Of a stretch of DNA of 17,478 bases, positions 4,391 through 10,257 are shown piece after piece. The notes under the pieces were generated by a model, which made no database searches, was not told where the DNA came from, and saw only the letters and a list, made by a program, of their open reading frames with translations. The stretch comes from Candidatus Poribacteria bacterium (lineage in GTDB: Bacteria > Abyssobacteria > SURF-5). Positions within the stretch are counted from its first letter, which is position 1. Each line of letters opens with the position of its first letter. Made by a program: the position numbers and the translations under genes. The stretch covers positions 1-17,478 of the forward strand of contig JACRIR010000144.1 of assembly GCA_016215705.1 (NCBI GenBank). The letters are read 5' to 3'.

Positions 4391-4458
4391 GGAAAGATGT
4401 CTAGTCTTTTTGGAGTTCAACGGTGAACCATGAACCGAGTTCCTCAGGAGGAATTCCC

Positions 4459-7278
4459 ATGCCCGCCAAGCATCTCGTGGTAGTGCCCCACACCCATTGG
4501 GACCGAGAATGGTACGCCCCATTCGAGAGTTTCCGAAAAAGACTCGTCTCCATGATCGACCATCTGCTTGAAGTCATGGAGAGCGACCGCAAATTCAAAT
4601 ACTTCGAGCTCGACGGCCAGACAATAGTCCTCTTCGACTACCTCGCCATACGGCCCGAGAACGAGCGCCGTCTACGAAAGCTTGTCGAATCGGGGCGAAT
4701 AATCATAGGCCCGTGGTACGTTCAGCCCGACGAGTTCCTCGTCAGCGGCGAGTCCATCATCCGCAATCTGCGCATCGGAATCAGGACCGCGAAGGAATTC
4801 GGGAAGCCGTCGTTGATCGGCTATCTGCCCGACCAGTTCGGACACACGGCGCAGATGCCCCAGATCTTCTCAGGCTTCGGAATAAACTCCGCCGTCGTCT
4901 GGCGGGGAGTAGGCGACACGGTGGGACACACGCAGTTCCTCTGGGAATCGCCCGATGGGACCCGCATTTTCGGCATCTATCTGGCCGACTCGTACAGCAA
5001 TGGCGCCCTGTTGCCGCTCAAACCGGCTCTGCTCAAGGAACGCCTCTCGAACCTGATGAAACAGCAAAAGGAGTATTCCGATATCGATAGCATATTGGTG
5101 ATGAATGGGTCCGACCACCTCGAACCACAGGCCGGACTTCCGGTACAACTCGAGAAAGTGGTTCGCGTCCTGCCCGAGACCACATTCGAAATGGGGAATC
5201 TAAGTATATTCATCAGCCAGGCCAGGAAACAGGCGCCTTCGCTGCAGACGCACACCGGAGAGTTCCGCAGTTCCAAGAGGGTTCCCCTTATCCCCGGCGT
5301 GACCTCGGTCCGGGTCCGCCAGAAACAGCGCGACTTTTTCAACTGCCGCCTGCTTGAGAAATATGTCGAGCCTCTGTGCGCATGGGCATATGTCTGCGGC
5401 GATGACCGACCTCATGCGAACTTCATAGATTACGCCTGGCGGCTCACGATCGAGAATCATCCGCATGACAGCATATGCGGCTGCAGCGTTGACGCGGTGC
5501 ATGAGGAAATGGAAACCAGATTCGACAAGGTTCAACAAATTGGTGAATACCTCAAGAGCGATGCTCTCTCGTTCCTGGCCAACCGCGTTGACTGTTCGTG
5601 GGCTTCCGACGACAATCCGGCGCTTTGCGTTTATAGCCCAACCTCCGCCGGTGCGCAGATTGTAGACGTCGTCGCGGAGATTGAAGAACCCGACTTCGCA
5701 AACTCGCTCAAAGGCCGCGAAGGCAAGTCGTTGCCCGTTCAGAAAACCGTAGGCGACCGCGAGCTTTACATCGGAATGCAGATGACTCCCGTCATGGTGC
5801 GCGAACAACTCGCCGGCATGGAAGGCAGAGAACTGATCGGATTATACGTGAACAATATCCTGTGGCGGCGCGAAGGGAAAGCGCTGAGACTGAACATCAT
5901 CATGGGGCGCGCTCCAATGGGAGAGGTCGACGTGGAGAAGCGGAAGAAAGAACTCCTCGATTTGCTGTACGATCCCTCGCTCGAACTCGTGGACATAAAG
6001 GGAATATCCGGCGCAAAGACACGCTTGACGTTCTTTTCCGACGCTTTGCCCTCCGCTGGTTTGAAAGTCTATTCAGTCTCGAGCGACCCGCCTTCCGACT
6101 CCTCTAAGTCGCTCATGATTGGGCCGAAGACTCTCGAGAACGATTTCTATGCTGTCTCGGTCAACGACGATGGAACCCTCGATATTCTTGACAAGCACTC
6201 GGGAGCGGCCTTCAACGGATGCCTCCGTTTCGTCGACGATGGCGACCGTGGCGATGTGTACACTTTCGACGAAATCTCCGGCGGAGAGATAGTGGATACG
6301 CCCTCCGGCTTGGCGGTCGTCTCAATTGCAGAAAGCGGCCCCGTGAGAGCTACATTGAAAGTGGATGTATGCCTCCACATACCGGAGAAAATTGTACCCG
6401 AACGCGACGCGCGGTCCTCGAACAAGATCGAAATAAACATCACTACCCTTGTGTCTCTGTACAGAGACATCAAGAGAATAGACTTCCACACTACATTCGA
6501 CAACCGATGTGAGGATCATCGCATGAGGGTACACTTCAATGCTCCGTTTGCCGCCCCGTCAGTCCTTACGGAAACGGCCTTCGGCCTCGTGAGACGCTCC
6601 GCAAAGGTTGAAGTCGCAGGGGACTGGTTTGAAAAACCCATTGGCACAGGCCCCCAGAAGACTTTCTCATGCGTCGAGAACGGCTCGTTGGGCATGGCGC
6701 TGTTGAATCGCGGTATCCCGGAAATCGAGGCGATTGCAGGCAACAACGCGACTGCGCTCGCACTCACCCTGGTGCGCGCCGTCGGCTGGCTCTCGCGCGA
6801 AGATTTGAAGGCGCGTCCCGCCGGCGCCGGCCCCGCACTCGAGACGCCCGGCGCACAGTCAAAAGGCCCGCATTCGTTCGAGTATGCGTTCGTCAGTTTC
6901 CAAGGGAATTATTCCAGCACCGGCCTCGTCGAACAGGCCCACTCATTTGCGTTCCCGCCGATCGGCATCATCACGAATCGACACAAGGGCAAGATCAATG
7001 ACGGAGCTTCGCTCGTCTCCACGGACAATCCTAACGTTATTGTGAGCGCGATCGAGAAATCCCGGTTTGAAGGCGTGTTACTTCTTAGACTCTATAACAC
7101 GACTGATGGCACACAGCAGGCGCGACTCGCTCTTTGGAGCAAGAATGCCAAAGTATATGAAGTGAACTTGCTCGAGAAGCTGCTTTCAAAAGAACCGCTT
7201 CGGCAAAAAGCCGGGCGCCTGGAGCTTGCGTTCCGTCCCGCCGAAATCAAGACGTTACAGGTTGTCTATGGCCAATGA
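4459..7278 (+). CDS. Glycoside hydrolase family 38 alpha-mannosidase
   Basis: A metal-dependent retaining alpha-mannosidase, 939 aa, in the normal size range. The catalytic domain (about 1-330) has the metal-site motif HTHWDREWY (H13, D15), GPWYVQPDEF (84-93), and the nucleophile and metal ligand D125 in LPDQFGH. NHPHDSICGC supplies the last metal ligand, H336. The three-helix middle domain and the beta-rich C-terminal GH38 domain follow. I chose ATG at 4459 because AGGAGG lies 7 nt upstream; an in-frame GTG at 4423 lacks a site. No signal peptide is seen, so it is probably cytoplasmic. Substrate is unknown: a mannosylglycerate-like solute or imported mannoside are both possible. Its stop overlaps the rhomboid start by 4 bp (ATGA), implying translational coupling. 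Codons 40-58 are duplicated in inverted form upstream. Confidence 0.95.
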   Translation: MPAKHLVVVPHTHWDREWYAPFESFRKRLVSMIDHLLEVMESDRKFKYFELDGQTIVLFDYLAIRPENERRLRKLVESGRIIIGPWYVQPDEFLVSGESIIRNLRIGIRTAKEFGKPSLIGYLPDQFGHTAQMPQIFSGFGINSAVVWRGVGDTVGHTQFLWESPDGTRIFGIYLADSYSNGALLPLKPALLKERLSNLMKQQKEYSDIDSILVMNGSDHLEPQAGLPVQLEKVVRVLPETTFEMGNLSIFISQARKQAPSLQTHTGEFRSSKRVPLIPGVTSVRVRQKQRDFFNCRLLEKYVEPLCAWAYVCGDDRPHANFIDYAWRLTIENHPHDSICGCSVDAVHEEMETRFDKVQQIGEYLKSDALSFLANRVDCSWASDDNPALCVYSPTSAGAQIVDVVAEIEEPDFANSLKGREGKSLPVQKTVGDRELYIGMQMTPVMVREQLAGMEGRELIGLYVNNILWRREGKALRLNIIMGRAPMGEVDVEKRKKELLDLLYDPSLELVDIKGISGAKTRLTFFSDALPSAGLKVYSVSSDPPSDSSKSLMIGPKTLENDFYAVSVNDDGTLDILDKHSGAAFNGCLRFVDDGDRGDVYTFDEISGGEIVDTPSGLAVVSIAESGPVRATLKVDVCLHIPEKIVPERDARSSNKIEINITTLVSLYRDIKRIDFHTTFDNRCEDHRMRVHFNAPFAAPSVLTETAFGLVRRSAKVEVAGDWFEKPIGTGPQKTFSCVENGSLGMALLNRGIPEIEAIAGNNATALALTLVRAVGWLSREDLKARPAGAGPALETPGAQSKGPHSFEYAFVSFQGNYSSTGLVEQAHSFAFPPIGIITNRHKGKINDGASLVSTDNPNVIVSAIEKSRFEGVLLLRLYNTTDGTQQARLALWSKNAKVYEVNLLEKLLSKEPLRQKAGRLELAFRPAEIKTLQVVYGQ

Positions 7279-7961
7279 TTCCAATTAGAGATAAAAATCC
7301 GACTGACCTTTTTCCGGCGGTCACGATTCTGATCATTGGGGCCAACATAGCCCTATTCGTGTTTCAGCTTTCGGAGGGCATCAGCCATTTTGAGCGCTTT
7401 GTCATGAGCTACGCGCTCATCCCGAAGCAGTTCACGGCCCATCCGTTTGCCTCGGACCAGTACATCTCAATATTCACAAGTATGTTTATGCATGGCAGCC
7501 TGCTGCATCTGGGAGGCAACATGCTTTTCCTGTGGATTTTCGGGAACAACGTCGAAGACTACCTCGGACATTTCAAATTCGCTGTCTTCTACCTGGCATG
7601 TGGTGTCGCCGCCACACTGGCGCACGTCCTGACGCATCCCGTCTCCCCCGTGCCGACAATCGGCGCAAGCGGCGCGATATCAGGAGTGCTCGGCGCATAT
7701 TTCCTGCTTTTTCCCAGGGCAAAGATCGTTACGCTCGTGCCCATCTTTATTTTTCTTTATTTCATTGAAGTGCCGGCCTTCCTTTTCCTGGGACTATACA
7801 TAGCCCTCCAGTTTCTCTATGGGCTGCCCAGCCTCTCAGGGGGGCCCACAGAAGCTCAAGGCATCGCCTGGTTCGCTCACATCGGGGGATTCTTCGCCGG
7901 ATTCTTCTTCCTCTTTCTTCTCGGTGGTCGAAGAGGGTTCCGCAGGCGACAGTACTACTGA
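7275..7961 (+). CDS. Rhomboid-family intramembrane serine protease
   Basis: A membrane protease that cuts transmembrane segments of other proteins; 228 aa, about six hydrophobic segments. Visible motifs: HGSLLHLGGNMLFLWIFGNNVED (rhomboid helix-2 region; catalytic-site His and Asn), the nucleophile Ser132 in GASGAISG, and the catalytic His202 in AHIGGFFAGF. The family start MIPIRDKNPT is typical. The start codon overlaps the stop of the mannosidase gene (ATGA at 7275-7278), so the two are probably one operon, an uncommon pairing. The C-terminus is short and basic (GRRGFRRRQYY). No clear terminator follows; the next gene has its own promoter 140 bp downstream. Confidence 0.95.
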   Translation: MIPIRDKNPTDLFPAVTILIIGANIALFVFQLSEGISHFERFVMSYALIPKQFTAHPFASDQYISIFTSMFMHGSLLHLGGNMLFLWIFGNNVEDYLGHFKFAVFYLACGVAATLAHVLTHPVSPVPTIGASGAISGVLGAYFLLFPRAKIVTLVPIFIFLYFIEVPAFLFLGLYIALQFLYGLPSLSGGPTEAQGIAWFAHIGGFFAGFFFLFLLGGRRGFRRRQYY

Positions 7962-8099: not shown

Positions 8100-8128
8100 T
8101 TGACTTCCTCCAGTTCCGGTGGTATAAT
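8100..8128 (+). promoter_or_regulatory. Strong sigma70 promoter for the ParA-CBM operon
   Basis: TTGACT (8100-8105), exactly 17 bp, then a perfect TATAAT (8123-8128). Transcription should start near 8135. The leader contains a small dyad, GGGCG (8142-8146) with CGCCC (8155-8159), and the ribosome site GGAGG at 8197-8201. A second TATAAT (8147-8152) lies in this dyad but has no well-spaced -35. Confidence 0.75.
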
Positions 8129-8206: not shown

Positions 8207-9253
8207 ATGAAGACGCTTGCGGTGGTCAATCAGAAAGGCGGTTGCGGCAAGACCACCATAGCCGTGAACATGGCTGCATGCATCGCGGCCGGTGGGGAGA
8301 AGGTCTTACTGATAGACATGGACCCTCAAGGGCACGCATCAATTGCGCTTGGCACGAACGGAGACCAATGTGAGCCGACGATTTACAATTCTCTGACTGA
8401 CGAAGAAGACAACATCTGTTCTCTTTCGAGCACGGTTATTGAGATCGGCGAGAACCTGTGGCTTGTTCCCTCGAACATCTGGCTGAGCGCAATCGAACAG
8501 CAACTGGCGGGTAAGAGAGGCCGCGAGGACAGATTGCGCGATTGTCTTGTCGAGGTCGTGGAACGTTACGATTACTGCATCATAGACTGCCCTCCGAGCG
8601 TAGGTCTCTTGACGATGAACGCTCTTCGAGCGGCCCAGCTCGCCCTTATTCCCATCGACATGAGCCGCTTCTCACTGCACGGCCTGCAAAAGCTCACTGA
8701 GACCATCAGCGTCTTGTGTTCACAGACTTCGCACATGGTCCACACGCGAGTCGTGGCAAACATTTTCGACTCGCGCACCAAGTTCGCCAAAAACATGCTC
8801 GCGTCGTTGCAAAACGATCTGGGGGATAACCTCTGCAAGACGGTAATACACAGGTGCGTGAAGGTCGCAGAAGCGGCAATGCTCGGTCTGCCCATAAGAA
8901 AATCTGCTCCGTATTCGAGCGCCCATGAGGATTTCGCGGACCTCGCAATGGAAATCGTGATGAATCAGCATCTCTTCGAGACCCCTGACCCCTTCCCCGC
9001 TCGTGTCATGTTCTCGTACTTTGCGCCCGAAGCGCATGAGGTCAAAGTGGCCGGCGACTTCAACAATTGGTTCCCATCGGGGCGCTACAAGCTGAGGAAA
9101 GAGCAGGATGGGAAATGGAGTTTGTTCCTCCCTCTGAAGCAGGGAAAATACAGGTATAAATTCATTGTTGACGGCGAGTGGCGAGAAGACCCCTCGAATC
9201 CGCTGCAGGAGCTTGGCGGTTTCGGCGAAAAGAATTCGGTGCTTGAGATTTGA
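8207..9253 (+). CDS. ParA-family ATPase fused to an AMPK-beta/CBM48-type glycogen-binding domain
   Basis: 348 aa in two parts. Residues 1 to about 255 are a ParA/Soj ATPase: deviant Walker A KGGCGKTT (10-17, with signature lysine K10), LLIDMDPQGHAS with D37 and D39, Walker B CIIDCPPS with D127. Such ATPases dimerise with ATP and position plasmids, chromosomes or large protein cargo on the nucleoid. Residues about 265-348 form an early-set carbohydrate-binding domain: VAGDFNNW, GKYRYKFIVDGEW, and a final KNSVLEI. W288, K318, W325 and N343 line up with the glycogen-contact residues known in AMPK-beta (W100, K126, W133, N150). GGAGG lies 5 nt before the ATG. The stop is 16 nt before the next gene. 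A role in tethering or segregating polysaccharide granules is my inference; a structural, non-sugar-binding role is the alternative. Confidence 0.93.
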   Translation: MKTLAVVNQKGGCGKTTIAVNMAACIAAGGEKVLLIDMDPQGHASIALGTNGDQCEPTIYNSLTDEEDNICSLSSTVIEIGENLWLVPSNIWLSAIEQQLAGKRGREDRLRDCLVEVVERYDYCIIDCPPSVGLLTMNALRAAQLALIPIDMSRFSLHGLQKLTETISVLCSQTSHMVHTRVVANIFDSRTKFAKNMLASLQNDLGDNLCKTVIHRCVKVAEAAMLGLPIRKSAPYSSAHEDFADLAMEIVMNQHLFETPDPFPARVMFSYFAPEAHEVKVAGDFNNWFPSGRYKLRKEQDGKWSLFLPLKQGKYRYKFIVDGEWREDPSNPLQELGGFGEKNSVLEI

Positions 9254-9269
9254 AGGAACGGAGCTATCC

Positions 9270-9920
9270 ATGCGAGGCGCGCAGCATCAAAAGAAGGCCG
9301 CCAAGAGTTTTGAGGATATCTCCCACTATTTCTTATCCGCAGCCGAGGCGGATGGCTCACACAATGTGACAGGAACGGCTGGCCACCTGGAAGATTCAAA
9401 TGTTCCACCGACCTCCGACAGCAAGCCGGCAAGTCCGCGAGGCGCAACAGCACCCGCGCGCAGACGAGAGAACTGCGCCTCGTGCGCTCACCTGATTGCA
9501 GCCAGGGGAGGCCAGCCGTTCCAATGTCGCATCTACTCGGCGCAGCATGAGGAATATAAGGTTGCGCGCCGCGAGAGAATCGATCTCGAGGAAGGGCGGA
9601 CGTGCCCCTATTTCATGCGCGTCACCTCGAGACAACTCGAAGATATCCTGCGAAGCCACGGCAGTCAACTGAGTTCGGAGCAAGTGCGCGAATACGCGCA
9701 TGAGGTGGATGAGCAGGTTATTCTGAATAAGACGATAACTTTCTCCCCCCGCGCCGGCATGACCCCCGAGGAAGTCTTACGCGAGGAGTTGCTCAGATAT
9801 CTTGTTGACGGCTACTCGATAGTCGAAGCCACCGTGACCCGCAAAGAAAGCCATTCCGAAGACAAACACTCCAAGACTGTCATGCATAAGACCAAGCTGC
9901 GCGTGAAGCAGGAGATTTGA
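9270..9920 (+). CDS. Unrecognised four-cysteine protein, likely partner of the ParA-CBM protein
   Basis: 216 aa; I do not recognise a named family. The N-terminus (MRGAQHQKKAAKSFEDISHYFLS) is a basic stretch followed by a short possible helix, then a low-complexity linker to about residue 60. A cysteine cluster follows: C69xxC72, C86, C112, with spacing suited to zinc or an Fe-S cluster. The C-terminal half (FSPRAGMTPEEVLREELLRYLVDGYSIVEATV...) is charged and probably folded. ATG at 9270 has CGGAG 6 nt upstream. It starts 16 nt after the ParA-CBM stop and no other promoter intervenes, so it is almost certainly co-transcribed. ParA partners often carry a basic N-terminal peptide that stimulates the ATPase; that role here is inference only. 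Confidence 0.85.
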   Translation: MRGAQHQKKAAKSFEDISHYFLSAAEADGSHNVTGTAGHLEDSNVPPTSDSKPASPRGATAPARRRENCASCAHLIAARGGQPFQCRIYSAQHEEYKVARRERIDLEEGRTCPYFMRVTSRQLEDILRSHGSQLSSEQVREYAHEVDEQVILNKTITFSPRAGMTPEEVLREELLRYLVDGYSIVEATVTRKESHSEDKHSKTVMHKTKLRVKQEI

Positions 9921-9963: not shown

Positions 9964-9991
9964 TTGACATTGAGACTTTGACTGGTATAAT
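9964..9991 (+). promoter_or_regulatory. Consensus sigma70 promoter for tRNA-Val
   Basis: Perfect TTGACA (9964-9969), a 16-bp spacer and perfect TATAAT (9986-9991). Predicted start near 9998, about 32 nt before the tRNA, as expected for a stable-RNA gene. Confidence 0.8.
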
Positions 9992-10029: not shown

Positions 10030-10103
10030 GGGCGGTTAGCTCAGTTGGCGAGAGCGCCTGCCTTACAAGCAGGAGGCCACTGGTTCGAGTCCAGTACCGC
10101 CCA
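10030..10103 (+). tRNA. tRNA-Val, anticodon UAC
   Basis: A complete cloverleaf: acceptor arms GGGCGGT (10030-10036) and ACCGCCC (10096-10102), D-arm GCTC/GAGC, anticodon stem CCTGC/GCAGG with loop CTTACAA giving anticodon TAC at 10064-10066, T-arm ACTGG-TTCGAGT-CCAGT, discriminator A at 10103. The following bases are CAA, so the 3' CCA is not encoded and must be added by the CCA enzyme. It lies alone between the ParA-CBM unit and the MaoC gene. No obvious attachment site or integrase is next to it. Confidence 0.97.
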
Positions 10104-10257
10104 CAAGATCGGCGATTTCAAAGAGGCCCTTCACGATCTCTCTCCCGGCATCTCATTTCTTTTGAATCTTCTGACTGAAAGCATGGAAACCCTTGCGCCT
10201 TGCGTGGTTTCGCTTTTGCATTGCTCCTTGCGACTTTTGATTTTTTCGGATAAGGGA

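Follow-up and report, generated by a model that had tools for sequence, protein, structure and literature searches.

A conserved family of ParA-type ATPases fused to a CBM48 domain and its possible role in positioning alpha-glucans

ParA ATPases and CBM48 domains are each well known, and a single protein carrying both raises the question of what such an ATPase would place, sense or regulate. The gene in question lies on a 17,478-nucleotide contig of a Candidatus Poribacteria bacterium (GTDB: Abyssobacteria, SURF-5; JACRIR010000144.1, assembly GCA_016215705.1), referred to here as the window. It had been predicted from the sequence to encode an ATPase that spreads glycogen granules between daughter cells. 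Cargoes described for ParA/MinD proteins include DNA, carboxysomes, chemoreceptor arrays, flagella and the divisome. The literature examined does not add a storage polysaccharide to these, and a search covering few subscription journals returned no published link of a ParA ATPase to CBM48 or glycogen placement. If the prediction is true, placing the energy store is an active process in bacteria, run by a system that many mostly uncultured phyla share and that could be reassembled in a laboratory host from two genes.

The fusion gene is a single uninterrupted frame of 348 codons with a purine-rich ribosome site immediately 5' of its ATG (Table 1). Pfam AAA_31 matches residues 1–173 (E=5e-51, over the curated cut-off), while the C-terminal part is matched by AMPK1_CBM (residues 275–348, E=4e-14, 52.9 bits versus a cut-off of 26.8) and by CBM_48 (E=6e-12, 46.3 bits versus a gathering cut-off of 22.4). 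This profile search, proposed along with the original prediction, therefore places both halves over the Pfam curated cut-offs, and the intact ParA core predicted in one open frame with an AMPK-beta/CBM48-like domain is borne out, K10, K15, D39 and D127 being present. The candidate promoter upstream agrees with consensus at 11 of 12 positions, in a region that holds three promoter-like sites where 1.3 are expected. The fusion gene and the gene behind it are probably one transcription unit, since the next good promoter (9964–9991) serves tRNA-Val. That tRNA gene (TAC) occupies positions 10030–10104, and its promoter has perfect -35 and -10 elements.

Table 1 Features of the fusion locus, in window coordinates.
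Feature	Position	Strand	Remarks
Sigma-70-like promoter, extended -10 (TTGACT-17-TATAAT)	8100..8128	+	candidate promoter of the two-gene unit; consensus match only
ParA-CBM48 fusion gene	8207..9253	+	348 aa; conserved at 63–64% identity in G001 and G002
ParA/Soj-type ATPase domain, residues 1–255	8207..8971	+	K10, K15, D39, D127; DNA-contact-type R190 and K219
AMPK-beta/CBM48 domain, residues 274–348	9026..9250	+	W288, K318, W325, N343
Partner gene, 216 aa	9270..9920	+	16 bp downstream of fusion; probably co-transcribed
Basic N-terminal peptide KKAAKSFEDISHYFLS of partner, proposed ParA-binding	9291..9338	+	motif shared by partners from six lineages
Cysteine-rich stretch of partner (C69, C72, C86, C112), candidate metal site	9474..9605	+	invariant in three Abyssobacteria relatives

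The ParA-CBM48 fusion is a real, conserved family with an unusually wide distribution. It is present in all three Candidatus Abyssobacteria genomes examined (63–64% identity), one of which is SURF_17, and is followed in each by the same downstream gene. Further fusions were found in Zixibacteria, Phycisphaerae and other Planctomycetota, Omnitrophota, Desulfobacterales, Nitrospirota and one Gammaproteobacteria bin. Profile searches detected the fusion in 164 of 285 Omnitrophota genomes (above a score threshold, the matches listed being full-length to the model). Among 199 Planctomycetota genomes, about 9 have it; four of these score lower, and for two the listed match is confined to the ATPase part. 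Two relatives at 63–64% identity and 52 further members across phyla keep the two domains joined, so the fusion is not a product of chance or of an assembly join. The first scan covered 84,980 species genomes and demanded either V[KQ]VAG[DN]FN or PYS[TS]AHED, so the conservation of these two peptides is partly a selection artefact; the tryptophans and ATPase residues considered below lie outside the scan patterns, and it was the profile search that supplied 30 Omnitrophota members. In a tree whose contrast set comprised only 18 other ParAs, 14 of them viral, the 55 fusion ATPase domains form one group (support 92/88). Whole-fusion alignments were absent among the best 15 of more than 5000 plasmid ParA-like records, all 15 aligning to the ATPase part, and a viral scan returned matches to the ATPase part only.

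The catalytic residues of ParA are kept throughout the family. K10, K15, T16, D39 and D127, which represent the deviant Walker A motif (KGGxxK[ST]) and the Walker A' and B aspartates, are unchanged in all 55 aligned fusions; R190 is present in 54, and position 219 is lysine or arginine in 50. R190 and K219 align to the arginines of 'DgRT' and 'NVRLAEA' in Soj, and their spacing of 29 residues equals that between R195 and R224, DNA-binding residues of Caulobacter ParA (PMC7229837). The ATPase domain of the family is 34–48% identical to its best-matching Soj/ParA structures, an AlphaFold model of a homologue resembles Soj/ParA (TM to target 0.88–0.94), and the catalytic residues and DNA-contact-type positions correspond to those of Soj/ParA in ParABS systems. 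The fusion differs from Soj/ParA in its C-terminal CBM48 and in reading KGGCGKT instead of KGGVGKT. McdA-McdB offers a second likeness, as a ParA-type ATPase that moves a non-DNA metabolic body with a diverse partner bearing a basic N-terminal peptide (PMC12204374). The McdA motif is SGGQGKT (PMC9178275), whereas that of the fusion is NQKGGCGKT, and the cargo contact, unlike in McdAB, would sit in the ATPase itself. Carboxysome genes were not recognised in the fusion neighbourhoods read.

The C-terminal domain belongs to the same family as that of AMPK beta, here joined to a bacterial ParA ATPase. As predicted, W288, K318, W325 and N343 fall opposite W100, K126, W133 and N150 of AMPK beta-1 in the alignment. 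Both tryptophans are invariant among the 55 aligned fusions, position 318 is always lysine or arginine, and position 343 is always asparagine or aspartate. Changes at W100, K126, W133, L146 and T148 of AMPK beta-1 are reported to lower glycogen binding (PMC2642990). Three of these five mutation-tested residues (W100, K126 and W133) have retained equivalents in the fusion; the L146 equivalent is F or Y in most members, and that of T148 is variable and not retained. Nonsynonymous change is equally low in the two parts of the protein (dN of 0.26–0.29 for the CBM and 0.27–0.31 for ParA, with synonymous sites saturated). CBM48 and other early-set domains can be structural, and the module might accordingly serve in protein-protein contact or dimerisation without binding sugar, the cargo then being an unspecified protein. 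The complete retention of the binding-face positions over several phyla makes this decidedly improbable in our estimation, even though the T148 and L146 equivalents have not been kept.

The predicted sugar-binding end had also been expected to dispense with a separate adaptor, and this part of the original prediction was not supported: a partner bearing a ParB-like peptide adjoins the fusion in the window, as it does in the majority of the other lineages. The window partner, kept beside the fusion in G001 and G002 at 55–67% identity, begins MRGAQHQKKAAKSFEDISHYFLSAAEAD and is without a match in Pfam, NCBIfam or PADLOC. A defence system was considered for the locus and dropped; PADLOC gave one weak match, to the P-loop only. 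Variants of the N-terminal motif recur in downstream genes of other lineages as EEISHLFLS (Nitrospirota), EEISHFFLS (Desulfobacterales), SEISHLFLS (one Planctomycetota), LGKGLEDISHLFLS (Zixibacteria) and LGKGLEDISYLFLS (Omnitrophota). In its strict form the motif occurs in 27 of 7751 ORFs across all loci examined, each beside a fusion, with some loci counted twice. A glutamate-only DNA pattern for the motif proved too strict, missing the aspartate forms, and gave near-chance matches elsewhere. Short as it is, the motif provides a handle for finding the remaining machinery.

The ParB of the window genome itself starts MVEKKALGKGLKALIG. The partner motif LGKGLEDISYLFLS resembles its LGKGLKALIG, and LGKGLEDIS accordingly looks like a ParB-type ParA-binding peptide. 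This observation is in line with reports that partner proteins use basic peptides at their N-termini to bind ATPases of the ParA/MinD kind (PMC10241942, PMC12204374, PMC11229316, PMC12462528), and we infer that the partner peptide would bind the fusion ATPase. The likeness to ParABS extends to the basic N-terminal peptide of the partner and not to its identity: the partner is without a ParB/Srx or HTH match, and the window genome has a separate Soj-ParB pair. When fusion and partner were modelled with AlphaFold as one read-through chain, the peptide was left undocked on the single ParA chain (pLDDT ~34).

Behind the motif, most partners carry a MinD-like domain without a P-loop. This assignment draws on a Pfam CbiA match in one partner (E=4e-5), on a profile comparison between the partner MinD-like profile and the fusion ParA profile (E=3e-5), and on a partner AlphaFold model that comes closest, among solved folds, to FlhG, FleN and MinD (Foldseek E=3e-14 and TM 0.65 for FlhG/FleN), with the motif lying in a disordered tail (pLDDT 42–48). 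Partners were aligned apart from the fusions, as a joint alignment misplaced them. The FlhG/FleN-like fold is found in partners from Omnitrophota and others; these differ from FlhG and FleN in the lost P-loop and in the N-terminal peptide, and no domain of this kind is seen in the Abyssobacteria partner. The cysteine-rich stretch was seen in Abyssobacteria partners only, and the remainder of those partners differs from that of other lineages. Three of five Omnitrophota operons contain a second copy of the motif, in a lysine-rich region of a DUF4912 protein. In Phycisphaerae, conserved-neighbour analysis did not find a shared partner, and most fusions there are without a recognisable adjacent one. 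An ExeA-like AAA ATPase lies directly 3' of one fusion (L036:6528-7397), with LFSFFLT near its start.

The anticipated link to alpha-glucan metabolism is supported by the genes around the fusion and by those of the window genome, in which GlgC, GlgA, GlgB and alpha-glucan phosphorylase all score over subfamily or equivalog cut-offs. GH57 is present in the fusion cluster at 20 of 40 Omnitrophota loci, and its placement takes two forms. At 16 loci it lies upstream, in the order GH57, membrane protein, fusion; at the other four it lies downstream, in the order fusion, partner, further genes, DUF4912, GH57. The one downstream GH57 tested contains a BE_C domain, as in alpha-glucan branching enzymes. 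The 40 loci were picked for good score and for partner presence or absence, one of them for a GH57 already seen adjacent; three GH57 identities come from Pfam and the others from BLASTP clustering. These 20 neighbourhoods represent about two evolutionary events, not twenty.

A CBM48 also turns up alone in this context. At five of 13 glgA loci, a small stand-alone CBM48 of the fusion type (E ~1e-25 against the fusion CBM profile) lies directly 5' of glgA. These Omnitrophota genes are located at L198:793-1152, L199:4726-5064, L207:5272-5631, L208:5641-5952 and L209:5368-5760. The plant CBM48 protein PROTEIN TARGETING TO STARCH (PTST) is required for recruiting a second protein to an alpha-glucan granule (PMC4339375), and the gene upstream of glgA is possibly a bacterial counterpart of such starch-targeting proteins. 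PTST has no ATPase, and homology is claimed for CBM48 only.

At the level of whole genomes, homologues that were widespread where glycogen genes are missing would have spoken against a glycogen function, and the sample looked otherwise: of 26 fusion-bearing genomes, all have GH57, 25 a GT5-type match (mostly weak in Phycisphaerae) and 23 a phosphorylase match. Because many bacteria have genes of this kind, their co-presence alone is weak evidence. Among Omnitrophota, GlgA was found in 155 of 164 fusion genomes and in 91 of 106 fusion-free ones, 15 ambiguous genomes having been excluded (Fisher p=0.027, uncorrected for kinship or completeness). The nine fusion genomes without a GlgA match comprise two with phosphorylase above cut-off, two others with strong GH57 and five with no strong marker. 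The one Phycisphaerae operon read (L113:6917-11579), from a genome in which no classical GlgA matched strongly, encodes GH57 and an archaeal-type glycogen debranching enzyme together with a GT4-like glycosyltransferase. The immediate upstream neighbours in the window, a GH38 alpha-mannosidase (4423–7278) and a rhomboid protease (7275–7961), are not glycogen genes. The same two genes precede the fusion in SURF_17 (L031).

Taken together, the domains, key residues, conserved partner with its motif and alpha-glucan gene neighbourhoods form the observed basis for an alpha-glucan-linked ParA positioning or anchoring system, a reading to which we give about an even chance. We counted against it the GH38 and rhomboid neighbours in the window, the fusion genomes without GlgA, the uncorrected statistic of the GlgA association, the membrane protein and porin genes near the fusion in one Omnitrophota group, and the undocked peptide. 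In such a system, the ATP-bound ParA dimer would use its conserved basic surface to sit on the nucleoid, and the C-terminal CBM48 would hold either glycogen or a complex that makes it, so that the ATPase itself would bridge granule and nucleoid. The partner would bind the ATPase through its basic ParB-like N-terminal peptide and stimulate ATP hydrolysis, which would release the tether; cycles of tethering and release could then distribute glycogen over the length of the nucleoid or keep it in position. Unlike in ParABS or McdAB, the cargo contact would reside in the ATPase, and the activator on one or more separate proteins. Somewhat more tentatively, we propose that glycogen granules or their synthesising complexes constitute a class of ParA cargo, served by a dedicated and widely distributed system in which the ATPase would bind the glucan, and different partners, pseudo-MinD and DUF4912 proteins among them, would plug into it through the short linear motif GL-E/D-D-I-S-x-L-F-L-S.

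The main rival to positioning is a sensory role, in which the CBM would report the level of alpha-glucan or maltodextrin to the ATPase and a ParA-type switch would control something else, such as division, secretion or an enzyme, glycogen being the signal rather than the cargo. The AMPK beta domain inhibits its kinase once glycogen is bound (PMC2642990), the diversity of partners (MinD-like, DUF4912, Cys-rich) suits a switch with many outputs, and the widely variable length of the linker between ATPase and CBM is likewise compatible with this role. The alpha-glucan enzymes in the clusters fit it equally well and therefore do not decide between sensing and positioning. We nonetheless consider a sensor rather unlikely, as the fusions retain the DNA-contact positions of ParA and the partners a ParB-like peptide, as in positioning systems.

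Another alternative is that a BcsQ-like ATPase places or regulates a membrane machine for envelope or exported polysaccharide, the CBM touching the polymer or a cytosolic precursor. Pfam CBP_BcsQ does match the fusion (E=3e-13), and one Omnitrophota group has a membrane protein with a related N-terminal peptide and an alginate-export-type (Alginate_exp) porin in its fusion cluster, which could point to envelope polysaccharide. GH57 and branching enzymes, however, act on alpha-glucans, and mostly do so in the cytosol, a polysaccharide synthase was not recognised among the neighbours examined, and the fusion stays below the NCBIfam BcsQ cut-off (86 bits versus 157.85), leaving this explanation improbable beside the positioning or anchoring of alpha-glucans.

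The Alginate_exp-type outer-membrane porin (L161:3030-4343) recurs 5' of the GH57 gene at 18 of 40 loci. In a second Omnitrophota group, the membrane protein directly 5' of the fusion (L161:6071-6628 and 22 other loci) has an N-terminus, DKKDIYEHLAKIYLDAS-KKKK, that is similar to the partner motif in the type of residue at each position. Just 3' of the fusion in this group, at L161:7796-8251 and 21 other loci, a lysine-rich, histone-like tail is joined to a small domain (THYFPKVRAAVIKLK) that weakly resembles Peptidase_U32_C.
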